Source: Linnemannia elongata (Eukaryota > Mortierellomycota > Mortierellomycetes > Mortierellales > Mortierellaceae). Taken from it: a DNA stretch of 64,000 nucleotides. Shown here in pieces: positions 3,301 through 13,598 of this stretch (position 1 is its first letter; each line of letters begins with the position of its first letter). The stretch lies in contig JAXBDG010000002.1 in the NCBI GenBank assembly GCA_036320915.1, positions 3,748,001-3,812,000 on the forward strand, read 5' to 3'. A model generated the notes under the pieces. It did no database searches. It was not told where the DNA came from and saw only the letters and a list, made by a program, of their open reading frames with translations. Position numbers and translations under genes: made by a program.

Positions 3301-5192
3301 CTATTTCTTGACAGGAGCAACAATCTTGGCGGCGTTGGTTTCGTCGCGGTTACCCTTGAGGAAGGGCATCAGATCACTTCCTCCAGTGCCCTTCATACCC
3401 GCTCCTTCCTCCTCCTCCTCCTCCTTTGCCTTCTCCTCTGTTTTGGATTTTTCTCCAACCACCTTGGTAACAGCAGGAGGTTGATCCTCGACCTTGACAC
3501 GGTAATCCTCCCATCCCTCAGGAGGTCCACGCTTGGCCTGTGTCAAGATGTAGCGTGTGACGATCTGGATGTGGTTATCGCGGAACAACTTGATGCAGTG
3601 CACACAGGCATCATAGATTCTGATCAGCTCCTTCACATCCTGTCCCTCAGGGTCGTTCGCAGTCTTTGACAGGACATAGGGACGCAAGTTGGCTGTTTGA
3701 GCGAGGTGATCCAAGAAGGCCCGGTGTGGCGCGGGCATGAACCCACGCATCTTCAACAACAACGCATTGGGTGCTGATTTGGTACCAGAGTTGTTATCGA
3801 GGTCGTGGTGGGTCACTCCGAAAAAGTAATCGAGGGCGGGGAAGACGGAGGATTGACCAGCGGTGGCGCCCATGTAATAGCGACGTTCGTTGTTGTTGAC
3901 GCCATTGTATTGAAGGCCGTTGAAGAGACCGATGCTGGCGGTTCCTTCAGAGCCGGCGAGATATTTGCGGATTTTCCAGTAGAAGACTGCTGGGTCGCAG
4001 TTCTCGAACATTCTTGCTATTTGTGAGGGGTGTTGGATGGGTATGTGTGTGTATGTGTCATAGAGCATGAAAAATGTTAATTTTTTAAGTGCTTTGGATG
4101 TGGGCCTGTACTGTACATTCGATCGATTCGACCAAACAAAAAAAAAAAAAAAAGAGAACTTACGCAGGATCTTGCTAATTTTGTCGAGTTGAACATGGGC
4201 AAGGTGAAGGTTCTCAATAACGGTCTGTATGTTATCCTCTCGAACAGCGTGGATGGCGTCGATGAGGGCCTTGAAGGCAGGACCGGCGGCGATCTCGATA
4301 GCGGTTGAGACAATGTCGAACCAGTCCTCATCCTTTGTTCCTGTCATTGTCACCAATGTCTCCAGGTTTCTATTGGTGCCATAAAAGAAAGAAAGAAAAA
4401 AAAAAAAAAAAAAAAAAACGTGTGAGAAGTGAGAGGGGGTCCCACGTTGAGAGATATGGTATTGAGCAAATGCTGTATCAGGTGTGAATGATTTCTGATT
4501 ATTTCCGCCACAGTCAACCCGCCGTTTGAGGGGGAAAAAAAGGAAGGGAGGGGAGGGGAGAGGAGATTGACGTTACTCGAGTTCGAAGGGTCCTTTGGGG
4601 TCTTTGAGTTTCCAGTTCCAGAGATCGTTGCTGGCGTAGGTCAGGACTGGAGCGATGTCAAGGATGTCGGAGACGGCTACCCAGGGCACAGCCAGGGGCT
4701 CAGGGATGTGCTAAAAGACGGAGAGGAAGGGAAAAGAGCGGACATCAATTGGACGTCCTGCTGATTGACTGTCCATCGCCACCACAGTGAGCGAGTGAAG
4801 GAAAAAAAAATGAAAAGAAACAAGCGTACCTGAGAAACATCAAGCCCAGAACCCCAGATGTAACTGTGAGCAACAAAGCTGAGGACAACATAGGCGCGTT
4901 GACGTTCACGCAAGGATGTCAACTGTGTGACATCCAAGACAGGCCACTGATCAACCTTGGCCCGGAGCTGACGGGAATCGATGAGATGGTTCAATTGGTC
5001 CATGGTCTCTTCCCAGGGCTGGAAGTAAGCTTGAGGCAGGCGGGGCAAAGGTTGGTCGTGAGGAACGAATCCAGTGACAGGCGAGATATCGTAGTCCTCG
5101 AGGACTGGGACTGGGAGCGGGCCAGCATTGGGCTTGGTCTTGTCCTCTTGGAGGTAGAGGGTAGGGGTTGCAGAGGTCGTAGTGGCTAGCAT
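3301..5192 (-). CDS. IDO: Indoleamine 2,3-dioxygenase
   Basis: Haem dioxygenase that opens the indole ring of tryptophan to N-formylkynurenine, the first step of the kynurenine route to NAD+. Exons in transcript order: 5192-4830, 4710-4577, 4369-4164, 4016-3301, giving 472 aa. Family marks are the N-terminal helical domain (YDISPVTGFVPHDQPLPRLP), NLETLVTMTGTKDEDWF, the GATAGQSSVFPALDYFFG block, MRGFMPAPHRAFL, and NHIQIVTRYI. The His of that last block aligns with the proximal haem ligand (His346 in human IDO1). The C-terminus adds about 70 residues, K/E-rich with a run of seven Glu, of a kind seen in fungal IDOs and absent from mammalian ones. The start ATG at 5192 is chosen over an upstream in-frame ATG at 5330 because it matches fungal N-termini. 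The gene converges on cullin-4, with 151 bp between stop codons. Tryptophan 2,3-dioxygenase is excluded by the motifs. Confidence 0.93.
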
Positions 5193-7371: not shown

Positions 7372-10300
7372 ATGCCACCTCAGAGGATGCAACTGGATCA
7401 GACCAACAACTCAACTGCTTTTACACAGCCGGAGCAGCGTCCACGGCGGTCAACAATCCACTCCACGACTCGTTCACATGGTCCCTATCGTGAGCAGCGG
7501 CAGAGAATCAACTCGGACTTGGAGGTGGATCAGGACGACGAGAAGCTCTTGCCACTCCATACCTCATTCTCCTCTTCAAGCAACAGCCAGCCTCACAGGT
7601 TGCACGACTCGGATGGAGCCGCCTCGGACCAATGGAATCAACACCGACCTTCAGGACAACCCGCAGGAGACTCTCAGGATACAACTCCAGTTTCGTCTCC
7701 CATCCATAGAACTACAGGAAGCACGGGTAAGCGATCTCTGCAGCGCCCACCTCCTCCTCGACTCCCAGGACACGGTCGTTCTCAGAGCGACATCAACCTC
7801 GAGTCGATTTCTTCAGGATTCAATCGCTCAGTGCCCTCACCCCTGGCAAGTCCGATCACTGCGACAGCCAACTCACTGACAGCCCTGACAATCTCCTCAT
7901 CGGGACCGTACGGTGTTTCCGGTCGAGACCTTTCCAAGATCACGGTCCCTAGAGAACGGAGAGCAACAAAAACAGTGCGACCGTATTCGGTTTGCTCGAC
8001 AGAGTCTCTGTTGACCCAGGACCGTATGAAGAATGGTTTCGGAGTATCACATAGTACGATCCACTTGGGTCAATTGTCAGACTCGGAGATCTCAGGCGCG
8101 CACGACCACGGAACAAGGGGGCGTGGCTCAAAGGGTAAGCGATCCCACGTGCAGCCGCCTCCCTCGCCCTCGCTCCCAACCACCAGTCACTCGTCGTCCG
8201 CCATCAAAAAGTCTGCCGGCCTCAAGTCGCCAACGATGAAACCAGCCTCTCAGCTTCGTGTTACACTATACAACCTTGTGTCTAACGGCTATCTCCCCGC
8301 AGAAACGCTGGTCGTCTTCCGGGAGCATAGTGCCGTAATCACGGCCAAAGGAACTCTGATCCCTCAGATGAAGGAGCCCGATGCGATGGCAATCTACCCT
8401 TGGCTCCAGGATGAGTATGAGACACCGAGTGCCTGGGCGACAGCGATGGTCAAGGGAGGCAGGACAGGGAAGGTGGCAGTCAACGGCTGGTCGGCGATTA
8501 AAGTTCCCATTCACCAAGATACCGAGCTCTCCAAGAAGTACGAGGGACTGGGAGTAGCGGAAGCCTCGCTGGATATCTTCAGAAAGAAGTATCTGGCTGA
8601 GATGACAGATGACGGAACTCTGGCGGCTGCAGACGATGCCTCATCAGGACGAGGAGACAGAGGTATGAATGGTTCCTTGTTTTGCATCGGATACCATGTG
8701 TTGTATTCCTTCGTGGTCATTGAGTTTAGTTGCTAACCATTTTTATTATTTGTGCGACGTACTTAGATGCAGATTCCTTGGATAGGAAGAAACGGAAACG
8801 ACCTTTGGCACGCTCTGGAGAGGCGGCAGGACTGCGGGTCACAACTACTGGAACCCGTGGTTACAAAGGCAAGACCGAGCCTACTCGACCAAGAAAGAGA
8901 ACCGTTTCCGACCTCTCAGGGATGGTCTCGTCAGACCTGCTCCAGGATCGTCAATTGCGTTGGGAAGCGGCTGGAGTCCTCTTCTCGATGCAGGATGACC
9001 TAATGTCCCCTACGTATGATGGATTTGAGCGACGGAGGACTCCCTATCAGCATCGGTGGAGTCGACATGTAGGCATTATACCACTGGAAAGTCTTGAGAA
9101 GCGACGTCAGGAACAGGAGTCAAAGCGGACATGTTCTTCAGTATCTCGATTGTCCGCTTTGAGAACTCTGAGACCGTTGTCGTTGGTCCCGGTTGCCATC
9201 CCTTTACACTTGACATCTTCCATGGCGCACATGGAGTTTTGTGTTCTCTGTGGTGGCTCTGGTTTGACAGCAGGATCGCATAGACGCCATTCCAACCAGA
9301 GCAATACGAGCCACCAATGGTCAAGTGCAGAGTCGACTGAGCCAGGAATGGGTGACATCAAGGCTGATCGGGATGTAATGAGACGCTGTTTTGATTGCGG
9401 AGAATGTTACCACATGGACTGTCTTCCATCTGATTCCCCTGGAGATCGCGACTCGTCCGTACTGGATGACTCCTGGCGATGTCCTCGTTGCACGACATGC
9501 CAGATTTGTGAAAAGTCTGTCCATGAACAACCGCCAGCCTCAGTATCTGTCGGCGCCCTATCATCGGACACTACACCGCCGATGGAGACTGACTCGATCA
9601 AGGCCTTGGTATGCGACCGCTGCCATGAGTTCACCCATCTTCAATGTCAGGTGGTCGTCGAGCCAGCCCTCAAACCAGCGTTACGGTCCCCTGCCAACCG
9701 GCACACTCAGGAGTGGATGTGTCTAACCTGCAGAGAATGCGTAGAGTGTGGACATCGCGTCGACCGAGCTACTGGACAGGCAGGAGAAGACGACAACGTG
9801 GCCTCAGCAACGGACAGGCATACCCAAGGACCGGCAACGGCAGAGGGGCGATGGTCTCATGGTTCTGCCCTTTGCCCCTCCTGCACGGTACTTGCGGAAA
9901 AGGGTAACGTCTGCCCTCTCTGCTGTACCATCTACCAGGACGACGATTACGAGACCCCGATGATCTTTTGCGACGGCTGTTCTCATTGGGTCCATGTCGC
10001 TTGTGACAAGGGCCTTGAAGACCGTGACTATGAAGAGCTCGGAGAGGACTCTAAGCAGTACTTTTGCCCGTCATGTATACCCACGCCGATACCATCGCCG
10101 GCGCTTTCCTCTTCGTCATCCATCCTGTCGACCGCACACTCGAACGATGAGAGCTCTTGGACTGGTACTTGCGGTCACGGATTGTTCGGCACCGCGAGCT
10201 GTGATGACTGCAGCAAGGAGATGCAGTCCTACAACGAGGACGATTGGCACATCAGGAGCAGTAAGAAAAAGGACGACATCCTAGATCTTCTGAAAGCGGC

Positions 10301-13300
10301 TAAGGAGATATCGGACTCAGAGTCTCGTAATACGTCGCCCTACACCTCCTATACCCCCATGTTTCCGACTACGCACTCCAGGACAATGTCCGCTTCCTTA
10401 GAGTCGGTGGCGGAGGTAGCAGCAGCCGAGGCTTTACTTACGATCTTTAGTGGAGCCAGCACACCCATCAGTTCGACACCCTATACATCGTATCCTCCGT
10501 CGCCATATGAGCCAAGTTTCAATGGACCTTACGACCGTCACTACTCCGTCATCAACAGCCCTAACGATCACGCACCACTGATGGGATCCATGGCTTTTAC
10601 GCCGTCTTCTGATCAAGAGTCGACTGGATCCTCACGCGACCGCTATGGCTTTCCGCAGGAGGACTACTTCAACAGTCGGCCATACTCTCGTCCCTCGATT
10701 CCTTATCACCATATCGGACAAGAACTGGAGTTCGCATCGGCACAGTCGAAGCAGTTTTCACAGCAGGAGTATGTCACGGAGCCGGGGGATGTTGTTATGG
10801 AGGAAGGACGTGCTGGACTGCAATCTCCCCGTGCGAGTGAGGAGCGGGACCTCAAAGCACTGCCGATGTCGTCAAACAAGAGTGGGACGCATCCTGACCT
10901 TTATCGACCGCTTGTACCCTCTCACCACAACTTTCAACGACATTCTTCGTCAGAGTCTGTACCAACGACGGAGAGTCTAGCCGATATTGTCGACACGCGG
11001 ACATGTCTGCTCTGTCATCGTGGGCCAAGTTTAGGCGGTGGTTCTGCTGCCAGTGACTACTCGGTATTGGGGCGATTGCTTCCACTCACTCTGAAGAGTT
11101 ACGGCCATTCTCGACAAGGCACGGACTCGAGTAAATCGACTGGTTGGATACATTCCAACTGCGCCCTATGGTCTACGGGCGTGACATTGGAGGCAACAGG
11201 AGGCGGCATGGAGAATGTCTCTCGCGTTGTCAGCCAGAGCCTTGGCGTCGTAAGTAATTAATCTCCCTTTCTTCATTGCTTATCGTGACGATACTCCATG
11301 CTGATAATCGTTTACGTGCATTTTGGAATTTAAGTGCTGTAGTTCTTGTGGACGACCAGGAGCAACGATCAAGTGCAAGACATCGGCCTCTAAGGTCACT
11401 GACAATCCGAACGCGTGTACAGCAACATTTCATTACACTTGTGTGAACCATCTGGATCAGCCACAACATCAAGGGCAGGCAGTCAACAATGCTGTTGTCA
11501 TGGATCACAAGCAGCGGACGATATTGTGCTCAATGCACTACCGAGAGATCTCGACACTAAACGACCTGCGATCAGCTGCTTTCGCACTTCAGTCATCCGA
11601 ACCATCCTCCGACAGTTCTGCTCCTTCCGCCTATTCAAACTCGTTTGTGCCACCTGTTACTCTACGTACGGCATGGACTGGGCCTTTCTGGATCAAGAAC
11701 TCGTCATTGGCATTGCAGGATGCCGATACCTCTGAATCGGTCTTACAGGAGACAAGCATCGGTGGTTTCAGGATTGGAGGACTCACCATTCACACCCTTG
11801 GCAAGTTCGACTCGCCCGAGTCAGTGTACAGCGAGACAGGACTGGCGAACGATGTGGATCTGGAAGCCTGTTATGAGATGGTCTCTGACAAGCCCTTGGC
11901 GGACCTGGGGTCTCGAGATCGAGTCTTGGCGTTACCTCTGGGATTCAAGTGCTCCAGAAGGATTGTTTTGAGCGGACGCCGTTTTTGTGTTGCAACGGCG
12001 GAGGTTGTCCAACGCCTGCGACAGCCTAAAGGTTCTGTTGAGACAACGGTATCCACTGAGACTGGCGACTTGGCGCACTCTAGTTCGGACGAGTTGGAAA
12101 CTGCATGGAAGATCCTGCTGGTATTCTCTGGCTATGGTCCACCTCAAGATTGCGAGTTTTTTGCAGATTCAATGCAAGGTATTTGATTGATTATAGATAG
12201 GTGAATTGTGTCGCCGAACATTGTTAGATGTTCTCATCACTAACATAGCGCTATCAAACTTTACTACATACTGTAGATGCGGTGGACAAGATCTTCAGTT
12301 TCTCCAGCAGTAACCTGGATAATGAGCATCAACCATCGCAACAGTATGGGCTCTACCTTCATTCTGCAGACTCGTTCTTTGGGATTGACCATCCTTTGGT
12401 CCGCAATTTGATCCGAGCAATGAAAGGCGAAAAGGAAGTCGCTTCAAGGATGTGGACCCGGTACCGACAAGTCCAACGGACGGTCGACAGACAATGCTGC
12501 AAGGAAGGGTGCGGCAACCAGTCACGGCGTCATCAAAGCAGAGATTCTCGGGAAGACGACAACGGTGATTGGGAATCAACAACTGCCGCCAGGGTTCGAT
12601 TGAGAACGGGCAGTTTGTTGTTGAGGAAGAAAGTCTCTCGTATCGGAATTGCTCGCGGCAGAGACCCTTCGTCGTCGGATGCGGACGTAGCCGAGCAGAA
12701 GGATGTGGACAAAAAGGAAACTGCCCTGGTACCTGGGCTCCTACAGGAACTCATCAAAGCATCCACCTCAACATCTTCCAACACCAGCCCTGATGGTATC
12801 GCGCTTACTGGATCGAACAAAGTGGCCCTCACCAAGTCGCAACAGCAACAGCAACAGCAGCAACAGGACTCACTACTTGAACGCGAGGACGAGAAGGCCT
12901 TACCTGCTCTTGAGATGAGTATGGATCAGCTTCAAATCTTGCGCACGGACCAAATGAAGAACGTCGCCCTCTTTTGGAATGGTCGGAAGATGGTGTCATC
13001 TCAGATCAGAGCCGCCTTGACCCCCGTGGCCCAACCCTCTCAAAGTCCAGAGCGGCAGTCCCTCGCAGTTTCAGATGGACAGGGCAACAAGGATGACAAT
13101 GAGCTTTCAGCTCAGACTCCTGAGGACATGGAGGTCGACGGCACTACCCAAATGCCATTATACCCTGGCGGCCCCCAAGGAAAAGTATCCTCCAGCACAG
13201 CGATGCCGTCAAAACTCCTTCAAGAGGCACACGCGGATGTGCGCGTTTACACGTCACGCTCATTCAAGCCAGATGAAGTGATCATGGAGTACACAGGAGA

Positions 13301-13598
13301 GGTAGTCCACCCTTCAATTGCTGTCCGTCGCCAAGAGTCGTACCAGAGCCAAGGCCGGAGCTGCTACATGATGTGGTGCGAGTTCCAGGATGCAGTAATC
13401 GACGCCACTATGCAAGGTGGGCTGGCGCGATACATCAGGAATGAGCATCGACACCCTCGCAAGCAGGATAACCCTCAACAAGAGCGCACCGTTTATGCCA
13501 GGACCATCTCTGGGCCGGGACTACAAGGACCGAAAGTCGTCATCTGTGCAGCTGGACCATTGGAACCCGGAACTGAACTCATTCTTCGATACTGCTAG
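7372..13598 (+). CDS. RAMA / PHD cluster / extended PHD / FYRN-FYRC / degenerate SET protein, trithorax (MLL)-like
   Basis: Exons 7372-8662, 8767-11249, 11335-12178 and 12277-13598 give about 1,979 aa. Order: a Ser/Pro/Arg-rich N-terminus; a RAMA-like domain (about residues 288-380) with ETPSAWATAMVKGG then NGWSAIKV, closely like the RAMA of animal MPND; a basic stretch RKKRKR (about 436), a probable NLS; a cysteine-rich PHD cluster (about 588-870) including CPLC..FCDGCSHWVHVACD..YFCPSC; an extended PHD (about 1175-1330), TCLLCHRG..WIHSNCALW..CSSCG..HYTC..CSMHY; FYRN (GGLTIHTLGKF, about 1405); FYRC (FFGIDHPLVRNLIRAM, about 1565-1605); a polyQ run; and a SET domain (about 1859-1979, EVIMEYTGEVV..VIDAT..GLARYI). 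PHDs, ePHD, FYRN/FYRC and SET follow the MLL/Trx order. The SET lacks the NHSCxPN motif and the post-SET cysteines and stops at ILRYC, so it is probably inactive. Expected in the nucleus as a chromatin reader. The first ATG is 7372. Confidence 0.88.

Follow-up and report, generated by a model that had tools for sequence, protein, structure and literature searches.

The RAMA gene and its product

The window, that is, the whole stretch of 64,000 nucleotides of Linnemannia elongata DNA analysed here, holds a gene whose product begins with a RAMA domain and continues into an array of chromatin readers of the MLL/trithorax type (Table 1). Three GT-AG introns join the open frames noted in a first-pass annotation into a protein of 1979 amino acids, which shares 98% identity with P0011 from Linnemannia elongata (Mortierellomycota). 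By Pfam, the neighbours in the window are ordinary: a cullin frame at 109-1020 on the forward strand, and an indoleamine 2,3-dioxygenase frame at 3301-4356 on the reverse strand.

Table 1. Features of the gene, in positions of the window; residues are those of the spliced protein.
Feature	Positions	Strand	Remarks
Exon 1: N-terminus (disordered-looking), RAMA domain	7372..8662	+	start codon ATG 7372; GT donor 8663; frame after splicing
Intron 1	8663-8766	+	between exons 1 and 2
Exon 2: basic patch, PHD1 to PHD3, linker, extended PHD (first half)	8767..11249	+	AG acceptor 8765-8766; GT donor 11250
Intron within extended PHD	11250-11334	+	between exons 2 and 3
Exon 3: extended PHD (remainder), FYRN-like region, start of FYRC-like region	11335..12178	+	junctions as in P0011, P0012, P0014
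Intron within FYRC-like region	12179-12276	+	between exons 3 and 4
Exon 4	12277..13598	+	stop codon 13596-13598
RAMA domain, residues 286-412	8227..8607	+	
RAMA core PWLQDEYETPSAWATAMVKGGRTGKVAVNGWSAIK, residues 343-377	8398..8502	+	T351, S353, W373 at MPND DNA-contact positions
Basic NLS-like patch RKKRKR, residues 437-442	8784..8801	+	from sequence; NLS role putative
PHD1-PHD2 cluster, residues 585-760	9228..9755	+	weak best matches: tandem PHDs of KMT2C, KMT2D
PHD3, residues 813-867	9912..10076	+	PF00628 34.6 bits; MLL1 PHD3 2kyu, E 3.6e-12
Extended PHD, residues 1172-1345	10989..11595	+	profile A5: KMT2D, E 9.9e-8
FYRN-like region, residues 1400-1480, FRIGGLTIHTLG	11758..12000	+	weak profile match, KMT2D and TBRG1 FYRN
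FYRC-like region, residues 1481-1605, FFGIDHP...ASRMW	12001..12473	+	weak profile match, TBRG1 FYRC
Tentative WDR5-binding (WIN-like) Arg motif TAARVRLRT	12582..12608	+	AAR-x-R pattern
Degenerate SET, residues 1858-1979	13230..13595	+	lacks NHSC and post-SET

Applied to the exons, Pfam finds RAMA, three PHD stretches and SET. Applied to the full-length protein, it places PHD and SET above their cut-offs and does not list RAMA.

The first-pass annotation had proposed that RAMA is fused here to the reader array. Such a fusion could, of course, be an artefact of annotation, with the RAMA exon being a gene of its own. This would agree with three models from Podila (P0006-P0008, 396-414 amino acids), which end shortly after the RAMA domain, and with the finding that no full-length Podila model was among the relatives found by similarity search. 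The deposited models speak against it. The exon joins of the window are common to three separately deposited models (P0011, P0012 and P0014); the first junction is identical in P0012 and P0014, and P0011 lacks two residues there. In addition, P0041, an assembly product of 1006 amino acids, has RAMA, the basic patch and PHDs within a single protein, and the frames from its source seem to be unspliced, because P0002 and P0040, of that same source, read into the intron. P0042 (1812 amino acids), where Pfam finds RAMA at 22.1 bits (below the cut-off), PHDs, an extended PHD and SET, carries both parts as well, as does P0043 from Coemansia. These shared junctions and joint occurrences confirm that RAMA and the MLL-type reader array are one gene and that the fusion is real; a separate RAMA gene is extremely improbable.

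The fusion recurs outside the phylum of the window. P0043, deposited as "Histone-lysine N-methyltransferase 2A", comes from Coemansia sp. RSA 1199, a member of Kickxellomycota, a second phylum reported to be rich in 6mA. Its RAMA domain is found at E 4.9e-14 with a profile made in this work (nominal 1000 sequences) and at E 0.0016 with Pfam; its PHD is found by Pfam at E 0.00023, both Pfam values being below cut-off. By eye, an extended-PHD-like and a FYRN-like stretch can be seen; with E values up to 10 allowed, the protein is not listed by the extended-PHD, FYR and SET profiles of this work. No SET lies within its annotated length, and the model may be truncated.

Elsewhere among the relatives, public names can mislead. 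Of P0019 and P0028, one is named RNA polymerase II subunit RPB7 and the other setd1a.

RAMA domain and chromatin readers

The predicted fold of the N-terminal domain is that of RAMA. With PF18755.6, exon 1 scores 26.5 bits and the domain 29.9 bits, against a curated cut-off of 35.2; the precomputed label PF18755.7 is assigned to P0001, the window's own frame. Conservation peaks in the RAMA core: among 12 segments compared, it has the highest mean identity to nine distant relatives, 95% (0.95, next to 0.85 for PHD3, 0.54 for SET and 0.34 for FYRC). Alignment to the MPND chain 7ydt puts the MPND contacts S113, S115 and W135 at T351, S353 and W373, the first serine having become threonine. This triad is kept in every one of the 42 sequences that have the motif, out of 44 scanned. 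The genome in which the window lies (51 Mb, 32 contigs) has a single RAMA match at E up to 1.

Two known proteins place RAMA in other settings. MPND, the animal RAMA-MPN protein, has an MPN/JAB domain; in the window protein, the Pfam scan lists no JAB at E up to 1. RAMA is also part of CcrM (structure 6pbd), at the C-terminus. CcrM, unlike the window protein, is a bacterial adenine methylase, and it is not known to carry chromatin domains.

Behind RAMA comes the basic patch, whose final four residues, KRKR, are invariant in an alignment of 16 Mortierellomycota sequences (A6). PF00628 then counts three stretches within exon 2. For PHD1-PHD2 the best matches are weak (KMT2C at E 0.033, KMT2D at E 0.14). 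PHD3 is of the MLL type, its nearest solved relative being PHD3 of MLL1. Thus the finger best placed for reading H3K4 methylation is closest to that of MLL1, in keeping with the earlier assignment of the array to the type that binds this mark. Against this reading, a cage glutamine of MLL1 PHD3 is replaced by phenylalanine in the alignment.

Two short stretches of the linker that leads from PHD3 to the extended PHD, DDILDLLKAAKEISDSES and AAEALLTIFSGASTP..., are strongly conserved (10272-10526, residues 933-1017), and they are largely invariant in the same 16 sequences. By eye, an AEALL-type remnant of them is seen in P0042 and in P0043. They are possible partner-binding motifs.

The extended PHD is recognised through KMT2D. 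The FYRN and FYRC matches that follow are weak and stand in the right order; an unrelated protein ranks between them, and Pfam has no match here in the exons or in the full-length protein. Further on, the AAR-x-R pattern occurs in all 14 aligned relatives that reach the region, within a tentative WIN-like motif for WDR5. Four other FYRC matches lie in the genome, at C11:548822-549043, C12:2953771-2953992, C31:751781-751990 and C23:695545-695739; the C11 and C12 loci (L027 and L028) look by eye like close paralogues.

The order PHD1-3, extended PHD, FYRN-like region, FYRC-like region, SET follows that of KMT2A/MLL1. In MLL1, a CXXC domain that senses unmethylated CpG lies N-terminal to the PHD cluster, as a sensor of DNA state. 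The window protein has RAMA there instead. It further differs from MLL1 in having no bromodomain by Pfam and in its degenerate SET. KMT2C and KMT2D (MLL3/4) are nearest to its SET and extended PHD, and weakly so to its tandem PHDs; unlike these much longer proteins, it has RAMA and a pseudo-SET. It also differs from the KMT2E/MLL5 and yeast Set3 type, which is not known to have extended PHD, FYR or RAMA, in having an extended PHD, a FYR-like region and RAMA. Among the literature matches listed, whose coverage leaves aside the main RAMA papers, there is no description of a fusion of RAMA with an MLL-type protein.

A degenerate SET and a separate Set1

Proteins of the MLL type were expected at the outset to bind or write H3K4 methylation. 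The binding half of that expectation agrees with PHD3. The writing half is unlikely to stand. One might argue for an active trithorax-type H3K4 methyltransferase from a SET that scores over its Pfam cut-off, is nearest in sequence to KMT2D/C, and retains the tyrosine at the end of ELTYDY. The NHS/NHC motif is replaced, however, and the CxCx4C post-SET is absent, in 18 of 18 proteins that show the DAT..GG motif (16 of the 28 relatives P0011-P0038, together with P0042 and the window protein). The other 12 of these relatives, which do not show the SET motif, are uninformative on the loss, their models being partial, shorter or ended differently. Sixteen of the 18 terminate with YC or YCS, whose tyrosine corresponds to the final one of ELTYDY in KMT2. 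Of the remaining two, P0042 continues past this position, and P0021, a model marked as partial, breaks off immediately ahead of it. Loss of the NHSC and post-SET motifs abolishes methylation by SET enzymes.

Moreover, the genome has a Set1 gene elsewhere. Its N-SET, at C11:180209-180499, is the sole N-SET match of the genome, and the Pfam scan finds none in the window protein. In this Set1, FINHCC is followed by a presumed intron stretch and then by PNC. With the motifs missing in all 18 proteins, and with N-SET and FINHCC present in a Set1 encoded elsewhere, H3K4 methylation by the window protein is unlikely, and the active-enzyme reading as a whole is very hard to credit. As the catalytic SET that defines a KMT2 methyltransferase was looked for and not found, the protein is most likely of KMT2 type by its readers and not a methyltransferase of that class. 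The degenerate SET, the Set1 elsewhere and the lack of SET in the Coemansia relative point instead to a reader and scaffold. It would be an MLL-type protein that seemingly gave up its methyltransferase yet kept its readers.

Two further SET stretches, at C29:1523693-1523983 and C29:1539381-1539671, lie about 16 kb apart, with equal scores and identical translations where shown. They are Set2-like by eye, and the pair looks like a local duplication.

Adenine methylation and the probable role of the protein

The genome encodes a 6mA writer, which fits the background of adenine methylation assumed from the start for early-diverging fungi. An AMT1/MTA1-type gene at C12:3304106-3304763 (L002, L004) shares the window's contig, at a distance of about 0.45 Mb; its joined exons score 244 bits with chains of the MTA1-MTA9 structure 7f4r, presumably from Tetrahymena, versus 122 bits with METTL3. 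A METTL4-like gene is also present, with 7cv6 ("Methyltransferase-like protein 2", 83.5 bits), which we take to be kin of METTL4, as its best match.

Published work places Mortierellomycota and Kickxellomycota among the phyla highest in 6mA, at 0.8-3.8% (PMC11258239). In lineages encoding AMT1, 6mA accumulates between nucleosomes bearing H3K4me3, according to a 2026 review (PMC13297926). That review also holds, and this speaks against a coupled reader, that H3K4me3 is possible without 6mA and that 6mA seems to work through nucleosome positioning and the blocking of transcription factors, not through dedicated readers. A comparative 6mA study calls the finding of potential readers key (PMC12695648).

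The directly observed architecture, predicted folds, loss of catalytic motifs, conservation, writer genes and lone RAMA match of the genome suggest to us a probable reading, in which the protein would be a non-catalytic chromatin reader and scaffold, derived from the KMT2/trithorax type, with RAMA as a DNA-docking module. Judging by its fold and conserved contact residues, RAMA would dock on double-stranded DNA near a nucleosome. PHD3, by its closeness to MLL1 PHD3, would read H3 tails methylated at K4. Partners might bind to the extended PHD, the FYR region and the pseudo-SET; the SET fold, having lost its motifs, presumably no longer methylates. The likely role would be to recognise promoter-proximal chromatin bearing adenine and H3K4 methylation together, and there to recruit or stabilise factors. 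Of the interpretation first offered, about half is supported: the fusion, the MLL1-like PHD3, the 6mA writer and the second phylum speak for it, and H3K4 writing has fallen away.

The gene is a conserved candidate in which a DNA-binding-type RAMA is tied to a reader of the H3K4me type, and its genome also encodes a 6mA writer. It offers a testable candidate 6mA reader in fungi, where, according to the 2026 review, no canonical one has been identified (PMC13297926). Whether 6mA is read, and together with histone marks, is directly testable in culturable Mortierella-type fungi.

How far 6mA itself matters divides the explanations. That the protein depends on it is possible rather than probable. 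In its fullest, and tentative, form, the idea is that a two-layer reader would need 6mA on linker DNA, seen by RAMA, together with methylated H3K4 on the nucleosome next to it, seen by PHD3. It would be the 6mA reader still missing in early-diverging fungi, and would have arisen when a domain of restriction-modification type was put at the place of MLL1's CpG sensor and the methyltransferase was let die. Reading by RAMA is here taken from a literature in conflict: one source names RAMA among 6mA-reading domains (PMC8885841), whereas in the MPND-DNA study the contacts of RAMA are to the backbone, no base is specifically contacted, and binding is unaffected by 6mA. That study suggests that partners may be needed. 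RAMA might instead be a 6mA-blind anchor on DNA or the nucleosome that steadies the H3K4me reader, adenine methylation having no part, and we give this serious weight, somewhat short of an even chance; the triad conserved here is the very one that contacts the backbone in MPND. However, the whole core of 35 residues is conserved, in our judgement seemingly more than backbone contact requires, and the fusion occurs so far, among the relatives found, only in two phyla, both rich in 6mA.

RAMA might also sense the unmethylated or hemimethylated state, as CXXC of MLL1 does with CpG, so that the protein would mark DNA free of 6mA. Its place ahead of the PHD cluster, which CXXC occupies in MLL1, and its membership of an adenine methylase, CcrM, fit this analogy, which we nevertheless find unlikely: in the review, H3K4me3 and 6mA tend to co-occur in AMT1 lineages (PMC13297926), and this speaks against 6mA being avoided by a reader of H3K4me.
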